Shown here: one piece after another, positions 51,104-56,448 of the stretch | How positions within the stretch are numbered: the first letter of the stretch is position 1 | Layout of the letters: each line of letters starts with the position of its first letter | Source: Candidatus Nitrososphaera evergladensis SR1 | GTDB taxonomy: Archaea > Thermoproteota > Nitrososphaeria > Nitrososphaerales > Nitrososphaeraceae | Reading direction: 5' to 3' | Length of the DNA stretch: 64,000 bases | Assembly (NCBI RefSeq): GCF_000730285.1 | Contig: NZ_CP007174.1 | Coordinates: 1,984,001-2,048,000, forward strand | Notes under the pieces: generated by a model | What the model saw: only the letters and a program-made list of their open reading frames with translations | Databases searched by the model: none | What the model was told of the DNA's origin: nothing | Program-made: the position numbers and the translations under genes

Positions 51104-51652
51104 ATGGCACGAACACTTTCATCCCCTCAGGTCCTAAAAACGGGCGCAAGCGCACCCAGTTTCCAGTTAAAGGGCGTTGACGGCAAGACACATTCGCTAT
51201 CAGAGTACAAGAGCAAGGCGACGCTCGTTGTTTTCATCTGCAACCACTGCCCCTTTGTCAAGGCAAGGATAGGCGACATTGTCGCGCTCCAGTCTAAATT
51301 CAAGCCTTCTGAACTGCAGGTCATCGGGATCAACAGCAACGACCCGAGCTACCAAGACGAGGGCTTTGACAACATGGTCAAGTTTTCCAAAGAATACGGA
51401 CTGAACTTCCCATACCTCATCGACGAGAGTCAGGATGTCGCACGGGCATATGGCGCGGTGTGCACGCCCGACCCGTTCCTCTTTGTCGATGGCAAGCTGG
51501 CATTTCACGGCAGGATAAACGACGCAATGGAGCCGGAGGCCAAGCCGACCGTGCCGGTGATGGAAAACAACATCCGCGCGCTCTTTACTGGCAAGAAGCT
51601 GGAAAAGGATTTCGATCCGTCTATCGGCTGCTCGATCAAGTGGAAAAATTAG
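51104..51652 (+). CDS. Thioredoxin-family redoxin (peroxiredoxin-like)
   Basis: A 182-residue AhpC/TSA-type redoxin. The active-site region reads VVFICNHCPFVKARIGDIVA (CNHC). GVDGKTHSLSEYKSKATLVV precedes it and the cis-Pro region is GAVCTPDPFLFVDGKLAFHG. Proteins with a CNHCPFV motif form a distinct branch of thiol-disulfide redoxins without proven substrate. Its TAG and the TAA of fixC/fixX share TTAG (51649-51652). Confidence 0.85.
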   Translation: MARTLSSPQVLKTGASAPSFQLKGVDGKTHSLSEYKSKATLVVFICNHCPFVKARIGDIVALQSKFKPSELQVIGINSNDPSYQDEGFDNMVKFSKEYGLNFPYLIDESQDVARAYGAVCTPDPFLFVDGKLAFHGRINDAMEPEAKPTVPVMENNIRALFTGKKLEKDFDPSIGCSIKWKN

Positions 51653-53520
51653 CCGTACTGGTAGACGATCCCTTTTTCCCCCCTTGGGTGGCGCCACTCA
51701 GTTTCTTTGGCGCATGTCCCGCACTCTATGCAGGCCTCATGTTGCAGTACAACCTTGCCGTCTTCAAGGCTGTAGCATTTCGTGGGGCAAAGCGTGACCA
51801 TTTTCTTCATAAACTCTGACTCGGGTTTTGTGACTTTGATGTGCGACTGCCTGTCGTCGTCGTACTTTAGGCTGGCGACCCGCTCTGCGACGCTTGGTAT
51901 TGTTGGCGTATAAGACGCAGTGACCTGCTTGCCTAACCTTTCTGCGATTTCTATTGGAACCTGCACGTACGTTTCTTCAGACTCGACCAATGGCAGTAGT
52001 TTGTCGTAGCCAAGCATGTTGGCAAGTCCCACTGCAAGGCCCCTGAACGCGCTTGAGGATATTAGCCGGAATATCATGCCGTAGCGCTGGCCGACGATGT
52101 CCTTTGGTACGTCTTTTGTCGCATCAAGGAATGTTTTCAGGTAATCCTTGTCGATTTCGCGCATGTCCCGCGTGTACGGGCTTGCCTCTACTTGCTGTGA
52201 ATAGTACTCGCCCATGTACTCGGGCGCAAAGTTGTTGCGGTCGATTGCACGCACTATGGATTCGGCTGCCCTTACCGCATCGTCGATCCCGACGTTGAGC
52301 CCTTCGATCCGAGGGCCAATGAACACGCCCCTTCCGGCGGCGTCTCCCACAAACAGGATGTTTTTGTGGTATGGCTTTTTCATCATGCATCGCTTGCCGT
52401 CCGGGACAAGCTTGGCTGAATATTCCAGCTCTACATAGTCGGTTTCAAATTTTGCCCCGTACTTGGACTGCAGGTCGTTCTTTATCGATTCAAGCCGCGA
52501 CCTTATCTCGTCGTCAGATTTGTACTTGCCCGATTCAACGAGTTTTTTGCGCGCAGAGGGCGAGTAATACGCGTCGCGCAGCTCGTTCCACGTCTTTACC
52601 AGCTTGCTGACTGCAAACCTCACGCGAAGCTGCTCTTCCTTTGGAAGGTTGCGGTCAATCTCTTGCTTGACTGCCACCTCGTCTCTGACAAACTCGGACA
52701 CCAGCGGGTTTCGCAGGAGGGCATCGACAAGCGCGCTAGGCTCTGCAGGCTTGTCCATCAGCGAGTCAAAATGGTATACGGCGCCGATTGATAGCGTGTC
52801 GCGGTTCGTATAGGCAAAGCCGCCTCCGATGTGCCCAAGCGTGACGTCTCCTGCAAAAAGGTGGGCGGCCCCTTCGTCAGGGCCCATGCCAAATCGCTCC
52901 TCCAATACCTGCTCTGGCAGTTTTGCAATCACCTTGACGCCCTGGTACAGCTGCGCCGGCGAAAACTTGGGCCTAGCTCCTGTCATCACGGCTATCTCCG
53001 AGTTGACGCCGTCTGCGGCAATTACCGCCTTTACCTCGAACGGTTCAAGCTCGTCCGTCTCTATTACTGCGCGGCCTTCATCGCCCCAGCCAATCGAACG
53101 GACGTGCACGCCAGACACTATTCCTCCGCCGGCTTTTTCGGCAGCCTCTGCGGCCTGCTTTGCAAACCAGGCGTTCAGCCTGCCAAGGAGCACCGAATAC
53201 CCGAAATTTGCCTGGTACTCGTGCGCGGCAGTCAGGTCGATTGCAAAGTCCTTGTCCTTTGATACAGCGTGCAGGATGTATTTCGTTATTTTGCGCTCTA
53301 CAGGTGCCTCTGAAAAGTTGCCATAGACGTCTTCAACGTTATGCACTTTGCCGTGCCTTGGCTTTTTTGAGTACAGGATGCCTCCAGAGACGTTCTTTGT
53401 TCCTACCTGCCTGCCGGCTTCAATTAGGACAGCCTGCCTGCCAAGGTCGGCCAGTTTTTTCAGTGCGGCAAGTCCTGCAGAGCCTCCGCCAATGACTGCA
53501 ACATCATAGCGCTCTGTCAT
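51649..53520 (-). CDS. fixC: FixC-FixX fusion: ETF-quinone oxidoreductase-like flavoprotein with ferredoxin
   Basis: A 623-residue protein. Residues 1-about 450 are FixC: the FAD-binding VAVIGGGSAGLAALKKLADL, then FVGDAAGRGVFIGPRIEGLN. Residues about 555-623 are the FixX ferredoxin: TLCPTKCYSLEDGKVVLQHE, then ACIECGTCAKET. In most genomes fixC and fixX are separate. The pair accepts electrons from FixAB and passes them to a quinone, or in bifurcating systems to a low-potential ferredoxin. fixB begins 4 bp upstream. Confidence 0.9.
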   Translation of the reverse strand: MTERYDVAVIGGGSAGLAALKKLADLGRQAVLIEAGRQVGTKNVSGGILYSKKPRHGKVHNVEDVYGNFSEAPVERKITKYILHAVSKDKDFAIDLTAAHEYQANFGYSVLLGRLNAWFAKQAAEAAEKAGGGIVSGVHVRSIGWGDEGRAVIETDELEPFEVKAVIAADGVNSEIAVMTGARPKFSPAQLYQGVKVIAKLPEQVLEERFGMGPDEGAAHLFAGDVTLGHIGGGFAYTNRDTLSIGAVYHFDSLMDKPAEPSALVDALLRNPLVSEFVRDEVAVKQEIDRNLPKEEQLRVRFAVSKLVKTWNELRDAYYSPSARKKLVESGKYKSDDEIRSRLESIKNDLQSKYGAKFETDYVELEYSAKLVPDGKRCMMKKPYHKNILFVGDAAGRGVFIGPRIEGLNVGIDDAVRAAESIVRAIDRNNFAPEYMGEYYSQQVEASPYTRDMREIDKDYLKTFLDATKDVPKDIVGQRYGMIFRLISSSAFRGLAVGLANMLGYDKLLPLVESEETYVQVPIEIAERLGKQVTASYTPTIPSVAERVASLKYDDDRQSHIKVTKPESEFMKKMVTLCPTKCYSLEDGKVVLQHEACIECGTCAKETEWRHPRGEKGIVYQYG

Positions 53521-53524
53521 TTTG

Positions 53525-54703
53525 TCATCTCCTTGCCTCCAGTGCGGGCCGGATGGCGCGCAGCTCTTCGATGAGCACAGGTATCACGTCTTCCATCCTG
53601 CCCTTGATGAACATATCGCACTCGTCCTTTATCGGCGACTCGACGTCAGGGTTTATTGCGATAACAAAGCCGGATTCTTTCATGCCGGCGATGTGCTGCA
53701 TGGCGCCGCTGATGCCGGCGGCAATGTAGAGAAGCGGCATTACCTTTCTGCCGCTCGTGCCTATCACCCTGTCAGGTATCATGTAGGACGAACTGATGCC
53801 CTCGCTTACAGGATACGGCTTTTTTGATATGGGAAGCGAGACTCCGACTTCGGCGTCAAGCTCTTTTGCAAGGTCTACCATTAGCTTGATGTTTTGCTCT
53901 GGCGCATCCTTTATTCCCCGGCCAAAGCTGACCACCGCCTTTTTGCTGTCATAGTCGACCGCGCTTTTGACAGGCGTTCTGCTAAGCACCTTCACCTTCA
54001 GGTCGTCTGGGTCAAACGTCGGCGAATAATCCACTATGACGCCTTTTCTTGAAGTGTCGCGCTCTATTGGCTCAAAGACTCCAGGGATTATGCTGCAGGC
54101 CTGCGGATGGTAGTCCCTTGCGATTGCAGGGTTGCGGTTGTCAAGGCACAGGATTGTTGTCCACAAAAAGCCGGAAAAGTCTGGTCTGTACATTTCAAGC
54201 GTCCTTTCGTAGACCATCTGCTGGCCCTTGGTCTTGTGCTCGTGCCTTATCTCAAGGTCGGCAATGACCAGCTTGTTAATGTCAGACGCAAGGCCAGAAT
54301 CAAGCTGCGCCATGACAGTCGAGGACAGCTGCCTGCCGATGCTGTCTGCGGCAAAGAACATGTAGCGTGGCCGGACAAAATCAGGCGATGAATCTGCAAA
54401 TTTTGCGACGAGGGACTTGTCAAGCGCTATCTGCGAGATGACCTTGGTGTCGACTAGGTTGCGCGAGTATTTCAGCTCCGGGCTATCGGCGTATATCACG
54501 GCGTCTGCGCCATATTGCACAAGCTCGTCACAGATTGCGCGCACGCCGCTTCCAAGGACTATTGCGACTACTTTTTCATTAGCAGAATATTTCTTGTTGT
54601 AGCCGTCCATCAGGCGCCTTGCCTCGCCGAGCATCTCGAGGCTGACGGGCACCGGCTCGCCCTCTTCGTGCTCTATTACCACGTACAGGTGCTCATACTT
54701 CAT
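53525..54703 (-). CDS. fixB: Electron-transfer flavoprotein alpha subunit (FixB)
   Basis: A 392-residue EtfA/FixB protein. The C-terminal FAD domain carries KKAVVSFGRGIKDAPEQNIK, ISKKPYPVSEGISSSYMIPD, RVIGTSGRKVMPLLYIAAGI and SGAMQHIAGMKESGFVIAIN. The N-terminal 180 residues are the alpha/beta domain. Length is larger than short EtfA proteins and closer to the Fix type. It overlaps fixA by 4 bp. Confidence 0.93.
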   Translation of the reverse strand: MKYEHLYVVIEHEEGEPVPVSLEMLGEARRLMDGYNKKYSANEKVVAIVLGSGVRAICDELVQYGADAVIYADSPELKYSRNLVDTKVISQIALDKSLVAKFADSSPDFVRPRYMFFAADSIGRQLSSTVMAQLDSGLASDINKLVIADLEIRHEHKTKGQQMVYERTLEMYRPDFSGFLWTTILCLDNRNPAIARDYHPQACSIIPGVFEPIERDTSRKGVIVDYSPTFDPDDLKVKVLSRTPVKSAVDYDSKKAVVSFGRGIKDAPEQNIKLMVDLAKELDAEVGVSLPISKKPYPVSEGISSSYMIPDRVIGTSGRKVMPLLYIAAGISGAMQHIAGMKESGFVIAINPDVESPIKDECDMFIKGRMEDVIPVLIEELRAIRPALEARR

Positions 54704-55578
54704 TTTATGACCATGCCTCCAAGCACTTCGTGGATCTTGGCCGCGACCCTGTGTAGTTGCTCGCGGTTTGTCCCGTCTATCACTTCGGCCTTTCTGCTTG
54801 CCTTGGCCTTTGGTATCTTTTCCACCTTGTACACAATTGTGGGCGAGCCGGGGAGGCCCACCATCTTGGGGTCGACTTGTAGCTGCTGCGCGTTGAACGT
54901 CTTTAGGTGGCGCTTGTAGTCGGCAGACCTTTCTTTTGCCTCTTTTTGGTATTTTTCAAGGGCAAGCCTCTGTGAGACGGTGTCAAACGACGGCTTGTAC
55001 GACGGGTCTATTGCGATAAACACTGGAAGCGGAGCCTCCACCTCCTCTATCACGTCGTAAACTCCCTGGAGCGATATCAGGCGCCTTGCCCTCACCACCC
55101 GCCTTTCAAGGTCAATGTCGTAACTTACGACATGCCCAAGGAATGTGAACCCAAGCTTCCAGGCAGTCTGAGGTCCGGTCTGGCCGGTCTCGCCGTCGGA
55201 CGCGCGGTGGCCGGAAAAGACAATGTCCATCTTGCCATCCATCTTGGCAATGCCGGCCCGCAGAGTCTCGGCGGTGGCAAGCGTGTCGGCGCCTGCAAAT
55301 GTCCTGTCGCTGTACAGGTGCAGCTCTTCTGCGTCGCATATGAGCTGCGCCTGCGCAAGGGCGGCGTCCGCGTTTGGCGGGCCCATCGTGCCCACCGACA
55401 CCTTGGCGCCAAACTTTACCCGGGCGTAAAACGCGGCCTGGCAGGCAATGGCGCTGTGAGGCCCAAGGATGCTCTTGGTCTCGGCCCTGTTGAGGGTGCC
55501 ATCGGCATTGTAACTCACGTTTCCTTCAGAAAAATCAGGCTCTAGTTTGATAATTACGGCAACGTTAAGGTTTGGCAT
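54700..55578 (-). CDS. fixA: Electron-transfer flavoprotein beta subunit (FixA)
   Basis: A 292-residue EtfB/FixA. Features are AVIIKLEPDF near the N-terminus, LGPHSAIACQAAFYARVKFG, the nucleotide motif LYSDRTFAGADTLATAETLR, then DIVFSGHRASDGETGQTGPQ. First gene of the fixA-fixB-fixC/X operon. In the bifurcating versions of this protein an extra flavin sits here; that cannot be decided by eye. Confidence 0.93.
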   Translation of the reverse strand: MPNLNVAVIIKLEPDFSEGNVSYNADGTLNRAETKSILGPHSAIACQAAFYARVKFGAKVSVGTMGPPNADAALAQAQLICDAEELHLYSDRTFAGADTLATAETLRAGIAKMDGKMDIVFSGHRASDGETGQTGPQTAWKLGFTFLGHVVSYDIDLERRVVRARRLISLQGVYDVIEEVEAPLPVFIAIDPSYKPSFDTVSQRLALEKYQKEAKERSADYKRHLKTFNAQQLQVDPKMVGLPGSPTIVYKVEKIPKAKASRKAEVIDGTNREQLHRVAAKIHEVLGGMVIK

Positions 55579-55640
55579 GCTGCTTTATGCTCCCTTTCCC
55601 TTTATTTCCATTGTTTTCCTTTAAATGGGTTTTCTATGTA

Positions 55641-56339
55641 TTATACGGTGGTGGCAGCCACTTGTTTCTGTGACGACCGCAGGGCCTCGTACATCTTGCG
55701 CAGCCTTGCATAAAACTGGGGCATGCTGGGCGCAATCATTGCATAAGCAAGGTAAAAGTCCTCCGCCTCGCGCATGTACCGTTTTTGTTTTTCGTGCCCC
55801 GGCAGGCTGTAATATACAAAAGCCATGTTGTTGAGCCGGTCTGCAAGTTTTATCACCTTGACGTCATAGTCTGCCTTTGCAAGGATGCCGCAGTAATCCC
55901 AAAAGCGCGCGGCCTTGCGCTCATCGTCTGTCTGTCCGGGAAACATTTCAATGGGCTTTATCTTCAGGTCGCTTGCTATTCTCTGCACCTTTGATCCAAA
56001 GCGGTAAGCAAGGTACGCTTCAAACCCGTACGACTTGGACTCGTACAGGTTGAGGATGCGCTCGTCGTCTTCCATCACGTCGTGCAGTATGGCAGACGCG
56101 ACTTCGACTCCGGTTATGTTTCTGTTGTTTGCTCGATAGTGTGCCACCACGTCCATTGCGACCGGCCACGTGTGGGTTTCAAGAAAGAGCGACTTGCCGT
56201 CCTCTCTGACAAGCCCGGCGTGCACCTCTTCGGCAACCTCTATTGCGCCTTCTATCAAGCTGTCGGGCCTGATCCGGCCCTCGTTTTCAAGGAACGATAG
56301 GAATTCGCTTTTGCTTGCCCTAGTGGTTGTCTGGGCCAT
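55641..56339 (-). CDS. Stand-alone SpoT/Mesh1-like HD hydrolase
   Basis: A 232-residue HD-domain protein. The metal/catalytic motifs match the (p)ppGpp hydrolase domain of SpoT: LETHTWPVAMDVVAHY, SAILHDVMEDDE (HD and ED) and VKVIKLADRLNNMAFV. There is no synthetase or TGS domain, so it resembles a small alarmone hydrolase. The HD domain is established for SpoT; activity on ppGpp in an archaeon is inference, and other nucleotides are possible. It lies 62 bp upstream of fixA on the same strand. Confidence 0.75.
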   Translation of the reverse strand: MAQTTTRASKSEFLSFLENEGRIRPDSLIEGAIEVAEEVHAGLVREDGKSLFLETHTWPVAMDVVAHYRANNRNITGVEVASAILHDVMEDDERILNLYESKSYGFEAYLAYRFGSKVQRIASDLKIKPIEMFPGQTDDERKAARFWDYCGILAKADYDVKVIKLADRLNNMAFVYYSLPGHEKQKRYMREAEDFYLAYAMIAPSMPQFYARLRKMYEALRSSQKQVAATTV

Positions 56340-56448
56340 TATGGCATAGTTTAACGCACAAGTATAAGAAAAGATTTGCTAAGGCCAGTACGCACATAGA
56401 TGATTCATTCATAACTCTTTAAAATCATTATTTTGTTCTGATAGTCCA

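Follow-up and report, generated by a model that had tools for sequence, protein, structure and literature searches.

The window analysed here is a stretch of 64,000 nucleotides from Candidatus Nitrososphaera evergladensis SR1, the genome of which is one contig of 2,954,373 bases. On one strand it carries a gene for a small HD-type protein, called HDa below, together with the genes of a FixABCX-type complex and two promoter-like boxes (Table 1).

Table 1. Features of the HDa-fix locus, in positions of the window.
Feature	Position	Strand	Basis or closest match
HDa, stand-alone HD_4 / SAH-type hydrolase, 232 aa	55641..56339	(-)	ATG start; ORF, Pfam, alignment, AF2 model
FixA (EtfB-type subunit)	54700..55578	(-)	best PDB match T. 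maritima EtfABCX 7koe_A
FixB (EtfA-type subunit)	53525..54703	(-)	best PDB match 7koe_B; RPDFSG at 173
FixC-FixX fusion, 623 aa, quinone oxidoreductase + C-terminal ferredoxin-like part	51649..53520	(-)	best PDB match 7koe_C
Promoter-like box AACCCATTTAAAGG in HDa-fixA gap	55618..55631	(-)	sequence pattern only
Promoter-like box AGCAAATCTTTTCTTATACTT upstream of HDa	56360..56380	(-)	sequence pattern only

HDa matches the Pfam family HD_4 (PF13328; RSH hydrolase superfamily) with 31.4 bits against a cut-off of 27.2 (E 1.9e-07). This is the sole domain found in the protein, with no SYNTH, TGS or ACT domain, which is the architecture of an SAH. The sole NCBIfam matches are RelA/SpoT models, at scores far under the cut-offs for the full-length proteins, and the best PDB sequence match is the hydrolase half of T. 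thermophilus Rel (E 1.5e-06); a profile of 30 orthologues searched against the PDB also matched SAH and Mesh1 chains, weakly. All 30 aligned orthologues match HD_4 at E<=0.1, and 13 of the HDa copies listed in the HD_4 search of the class genomes score below the Pfam cut-off. The alignment has 52 columns that are invariant across the 30 copies. The copy in the window has one extra residue (residues 175-177), soon after the NNM motif, when compared with the 29 others.

A chance ORF or an artefact is ruled out by the intact orthologues, present at 48-100% identity in 34 of the 200 class genomes (35 copies, as one genome has two). A long RSH enzyme of the Rel/SpoT kind is also ruled out, there being no synthetase domain fused to HDa or elsewhere in the genome. 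The search of plasmids with HDa gave no match, and its three matches in unannotated phage contigs from the human gut are weak (30-34% identity) and too distant for orthologues; an origin as a mobile-element, phage or plasmid gene was rejected on these grounds. A plasmid search with SpoT, meant to supply references for the seven described SAH subgroups, yielded only loosely named HD proteins, which were set aside.

Eight residues of the putative active site, R45, H56, H86-D87, E90-D91, D167 and N171, are invariant in all 35 copies. When aligned by way of E. coli SpoT (25% identity), H56, H86 and D167 fall on the RelSeq metal ligands H53, H77 and D144, and R45, D87 and N171 correspond to R44, D78 and N148. 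E90 and D91 are the counterparts of RelSeq E81 and D82, whose roles we take to be catalytic as well. The roles of the metal ligands and of most of the catalytic positions of RelSeq are given in PMC13299517. Such a complete set in every copy argues for HDa being a working catalyst. The parts of the site that contact the base in RelSeq are changed: E46-D47 stands in place of K45-S46 in a loop that is two residues longer, and F174 takes the position of T151. These replacements are invariant in HDa, and so is Y104-G105-F106-x-x-Y109, which lies within an insert and is not seen in SpoT or RelSeq. The substrate is not deducible from the changed residues, because RelSeq is reported to hold the guanine mostly via main-chain atoms (PMC13299517). 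An earlier reading of the DNA, made from its letters alone and referred to here as the sequence-only reading, had described a stand-alone hydrolase with HD motifs like those of SpoT and Mesh1. Both points are borne out by the domain content and the complete catalytic set, and the careful alignment which that reading proposed left none of the catalytic residues missing.

The AlphaFold2 model of HDa, built from 13 sequences, has a mean pLDDT of 84.5 and a pTM of 0.84, and its top Foldseek matches are structures of Rel, SAH, MESH1 and SpoT. VIA-align gave Z scores of 19.0 with the SAH RelH, 18.0 with SpoT, 17.2 with the Leptospira SAH, 16.7 with the P. aeruginosa SAH and 16.2 with human Mesh1 in complex with NADPH or PAPS (the PAPS complex is 9chy). 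Taken together, the model reaches Z 14-19 against SAH, SpoT, Mesh1 and most Rel structures and only about 9 against PDE structures, so HDa is predicted to have the fold of the hydrolase domain.

Several known proteins resemble HDa in one respect or another. The best structural match, RelH of Corynebacterium glutamicum (7qoc/7qod), is likewise a stand-alone HD protein and superposes over 183 residues with an rmsd of 2.8, although the identity is 19% and HDa adds an N-terminal stretch. Unlike RelH, HDa has family-specific invariants (the R-E-D loop and Y-G-F-x-x-Y), is archaeal, and is linked to fixABCX. Metazoan MESH1 (3nr1, 5vxa, 9chy) shares the HD-only fold with Z 16.2-16.3 and 17-19% identity. 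It also resembles HDa in being a hydrolase found where ppGpp is scarce or absent, and is described in the literature as an NADPH and CoA phosphatase. The hydrolase half of SpoT/Rel agrees with HDa in its metal ligands and in its catalytic residues, at 25% identity over the domain in the case of E. coli SpoT, but HDa is without the synthetase, TGS and ACT domains. Lastly, XccSAH of Xanthomonas, an orphan SAH of the Mesh1-L type and a model for dual alarmone/NADPH activity, is comparable to HDa by description rather than by alignment in that it is an orphan without a toxic synthetase (PMC9765508). Xanthomonas, however, can make (p)ppGpp with its long RSH enzymes, whereas the HDa genome is without a synthetase domain.

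The T. maritima EtfABCX, to which all three fix products are best matched, is reported to be an NADH-oxidising bifurcating enzyme, in which the Arg of an RPXFGG motif is needed for bifurcation (PMC10734219). FixB of the window keeps this Arg, as RPDFSG. In FixA a regular expression for the GXXSPTXV pattern found no match; the PDB alignment has GLPGSPTIV opposite GFFGSPTRV, and we do not count the motif as printed as present. Because of the best matches to 7koe and the kept Arg, FixABCX here would fit an NADH-oxidising complex that reduces quinone and ferredoxin.

The association between HDa and fix extends well beyond the window. Within the same 200 class genomes, FixCX was found in 52, FixA in 52, and either of them in 53. 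FixA is present in all 34 genomes with HDa and FixCX in 33 of them; the co-occurrence of HDa with FixA has a hypergeometric probability of 4e-25, a figure that is uncorrected for the relatedness of the genomes. HDa adjoins fix in 31 of its 35 copies, and the closeness to fix described by the sequence-only reading has thus turned out to be far stronger than was claimed, by content as well as by position. There are two arrangements. In the family of the window HDa lies upstream of fixA on the same strand, and in a second family HDa and the FixCX end meet tail-to-tail. No fix gene is seen in the available flanks (0.3 kb to about 5 kb) of the remaining four copies, those of G115, G139 and G152 and one of the two copies of G183, all from one genus. 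A separate scan of contigs gave 15 HDa loci, with the link to fix seen in 13 and the other two contigs ending at or within HDa. By record title all 15 are from archaea of the HDa lineage, one being labelled "bacterium". Seven of 300 sampled phylum genomes gave a match to the HDa profile, four of them with HDa itself and three with weak matches to other HD_4 proteins, including one long Rel-like ORF. The latter is an open frame of 579 aa (L102, G363:C34) in a genome that is 74% complete, and may belong to a foreign contig. In the class genomes, the phylum sample and the contig scan alike, HDa orthologues were found only in the order and lineage of the window.

Since 19 of the 53 fix-bearing genomes are without HDa, fix must be able to work without it. 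In a tree of FixCX with 50 rows, the HDa label changes 5 times, as against 15 times with shuffled labels, and the second-family fix copies without HDa form one group (support 84/90), with the exception of G159. The HDa tree splits by family (94/85). The two trees suggest that HDa descended together with fix, with several losses on the way. Common descent accounts for part of the linkage, and the HDa-fix neighbourhood seems to have outlived at least one rearrangement. The odd copy of the HDa tree, on contig 34 of G183, stands beside the second family and is possibly due to gene transfer or to a contaminating contig. This copy (G183:C34:503-1165; L010, L082) has a fixA fragment on the same strand.

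It is worth asking whether the close linkage amounts to an operon. The sequence-only reading placed HDa immediately before the fix operon in the same orientation; the position stands, with a gap of 62 bp to fixA, but the gap also holds a conserved promoter-like box, so that co-transcription is at most possible. A box of the form CCATTTAA(A/G)G occurs there in 18 of the 22 loci with HDa upstream of fixA (counted by eye, some loci being from the same genome), roughly 25-47 bp ahead of fixA wherever the start of that gene can be set. Upstream of HDa itself, a CTTTT box is found at a similar place in all 14 window-family loci shown, and a GATCANNTTTTT box in 11 of the 13 second-family loci shown (L012-L030), both again counted by eye. 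In several of the second-family loci the GATCANNTTTTT box extends to an inverted repeat, GATCAT..ATGATC, which is a possible operator. As sequence patterns, the boxes would argue against one unit that has its only start at HDa, and a shared transcript may still be made. A simple HDa-fix operon is unsupported, because of the conserved boxes in the gap and the facing genes of the second family.

Whether there are alarmones for HDa to act on was approached through the synthetase domain. The search for RelA-type synthetases suggested by the sequence-only reading gave 0 matches to RelA_SpoT (PF04607) in the HDa genome, the same search being positive in 11 of 14 control genomes. A pairing of the toxSAS kind is likewise absent, with no toxic synthetase beside HDa or in its genome. 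Across the class, PF04607 is present in 7 of 200 genomes, and HD_4 matches in 91 (the HDa of G161 was missed by the HD_4 search), of which one also has PF04607. Six of the seven PF04607 genomes are thus without an HD_4 match; the chance of one or fewer of the seven having it is 0.09, which is a lack of association and not proof of avoidance. In these six, the PF04607 ORFs are open frames of 329-452 aa (L091, L092, L094-L097), and if they make alarmones there is no HD_4-family protein there to clear them. The seventh, G132, belongs to the same genus as the window, has an HDa 91% identical, and is the only one of the 34 HDa genomes with PF04607. Its synthetase-type ORF (L093:1291-1983 +; G132:C1:2246827) encodes 230 aa with 72.7 bits for PF04607, and lies more than 1 Mb from HDa by coordinates. 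Its overlap with the end of a Mu-portal-like gene suggests a provirus; the ORF is likely a viral alarmone-synthetase-like gene in an archaeal provirus.

We propose that HDa is an orphan SAH-type, metal-dependent 2'/3'-phosphohydrolase that would serve FixABCX-linked redox metabolism, with NADP(H) as its likeliest substrate, and give this reading a probability of roughly 0.45. Its parts are of different strength. A metal-dependent nucleotide phosphohydrolase is what HDa very probably is; a function tied to FixABCX has somewhat better than even odds; and NADP(H) as the main substrate is a tentative choice by analogy with XccSAH and MESH1. According to this proposal HDa would have become genetically tied to the FixABCX-type complex of ammonia-oxidising archaea. 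A metal, probably Mn2+, would be held by H56, H86 and D167, D87, E90, D91, R45 and N171 would position the substrate and the water, and a 2'- or 3'-phosphate, or a pyrophosphate, would be removed from a nucleotide. Mn2+-dependent attack on a 2'-/3'-phosphate or pyrophosphate is the chemistry common to this fold, the members of which differ in substrate. A cofactor with such a phosphate appears the likeliest substrate because the genome has no alarmone maker, and NADP(H) is put first because fix is in addition the constant companion of HDa; alarmones come second, and CoA or PAP third. By this route HDa might shift NADP(H) towards the NAD(H) used by FixABCX. XccSAH, also an orphan, is reported to hydrolyse both alarmones and NADPH, and its loss to lower cellular NADH about 10-fold (PMC9765508). 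For MESH1 both NADPH and CoA are reported as substrates, CoA losing its 3'-phosphate (PMC13221220). Two points count against NADP(H). An autotroph depends on NADPH to fix carbon, so that destroying it would seem expensive, and XccSAH acts far less well on NADPH than on alarmones. A bolder form of the proposal is doubtful: HDa would be a distinct archaeal SAH branch and a dedicated accessory of a bifurcating FixABCX, dephosphorylating NADP(H), or some related cofactor, and so adjusting how much NAD(H) is available for bifurcation, in a redox role independent of ppGpp.

The alarmone hydrolase of the sequence-only reading fares well as homology, since HDa is related to the hydrolase domain of SpoT and Mesh1, and less well as function, there being no source of (p)ppGpp here. 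In that role HDa would break down (p)ppGpp or (p)ppApp of outside origin, whether neighbours inject or release them or viral synthetases make them, and its place beside fix would have other reasons. We regard this as a lesser possibility, if a serious one: the solved folds closest to HDa are those of alarmone hydrolases, the catalytic set is complete, XccSAH is reported to be far better on alarmones in vitro than on NADPH (PMC9765508), and the ORF of G132 suggests that viruses of the genus may bring such enzymes. Against it are the synthetase-free genome, the rarity of PF04607 among both HDa and HD_4 genomes together with the six PF04607 genomes that have no HD_4 match, and the RelSeq base loop, which is not kept in HDa; the link to fix is left unexplained. 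A role as a 3'-phosphatase of CoA or PAPS/PAP, by which HDa would adjust the CoA supply to ETF-linked acyl-CoA chemistry, is rather unlikely. The reported CoA 3'-phosphatase activity of MESH1 (PMC13221220), the presence of the MESH1-PAPS complex among the structural matches and the nature of FixAB as ETF subunits would all suit such a role, but the linked complex, with its FixCX fusion, is of the quinone/ferredoxin type and not the acyl-CoA type of ETF. The idea that HDa chiefly binds a nucleotide and regulates FixABCX, with no catalysis of relevance, or that its closeness to fix is inherited gene order only, has some backing from linkage that follows descent inside each family and from the degenerate motifs of other HD_4 proteins of the lineage, but it is improbable given that every catalytic residue is kept in all copies, that the adjacency survives the change from same-strand to tail-to-tail order, and that HDa is never without fix in the 200-genome sample.

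SAHs in archaea are not new. They have been reported since 2011 from M. barkeri, M. burtonii, N. pharaonis and an uncultured methanogen, all of which lack a small synthetase, and the word Thaumarchaeota has 0 occurrences in the available text of that report (PMC3153485). What appears to be new here is the branch in ammonia-oxidising archaea, its invariants and its link to fix, none of which is described in the open-access literature searched. A "SpoT/RelA" of N. viennensis is given without a locus tag in the accessible part of PMC12542715, and may or may not be HDa. The retention of SpoT-like hydrolases by organisms that have no ppGpp is a puzzle already raised for MESH1 in animals; HDa adds a prokaryotic example whose genomic partner, FixABCX, points to a pathway. 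If HDa acts on NADP(H) or CoA, this would support cofactor control as an old function of the fold, and it bears on the physiology of ammonia-oxidising archaea.

HDa is not the only HD_4 protein of its genome. A second one, HDb (G000:C1:347424-347843; L031:1405-1998 +), has 197 aa and scores 63.9-64.2 bits, with a degenerate motif in which HDALEG replaces HD..ED and KLADRLDT is without the Asn; its relatives in other members of the family also have the ED motif altered. HDa was rejected as a recent duplicate of HDb, its identity to HDb (22%) being lower than that to E. coli SpoT. In the genus g15, six of the nine HDa genomes have another HD_4 gene about 9-13 kb from HDa on the same contig (G087:C30, G097:C46, G134:C222, G151:C20, G155:C8 and G156:C115).
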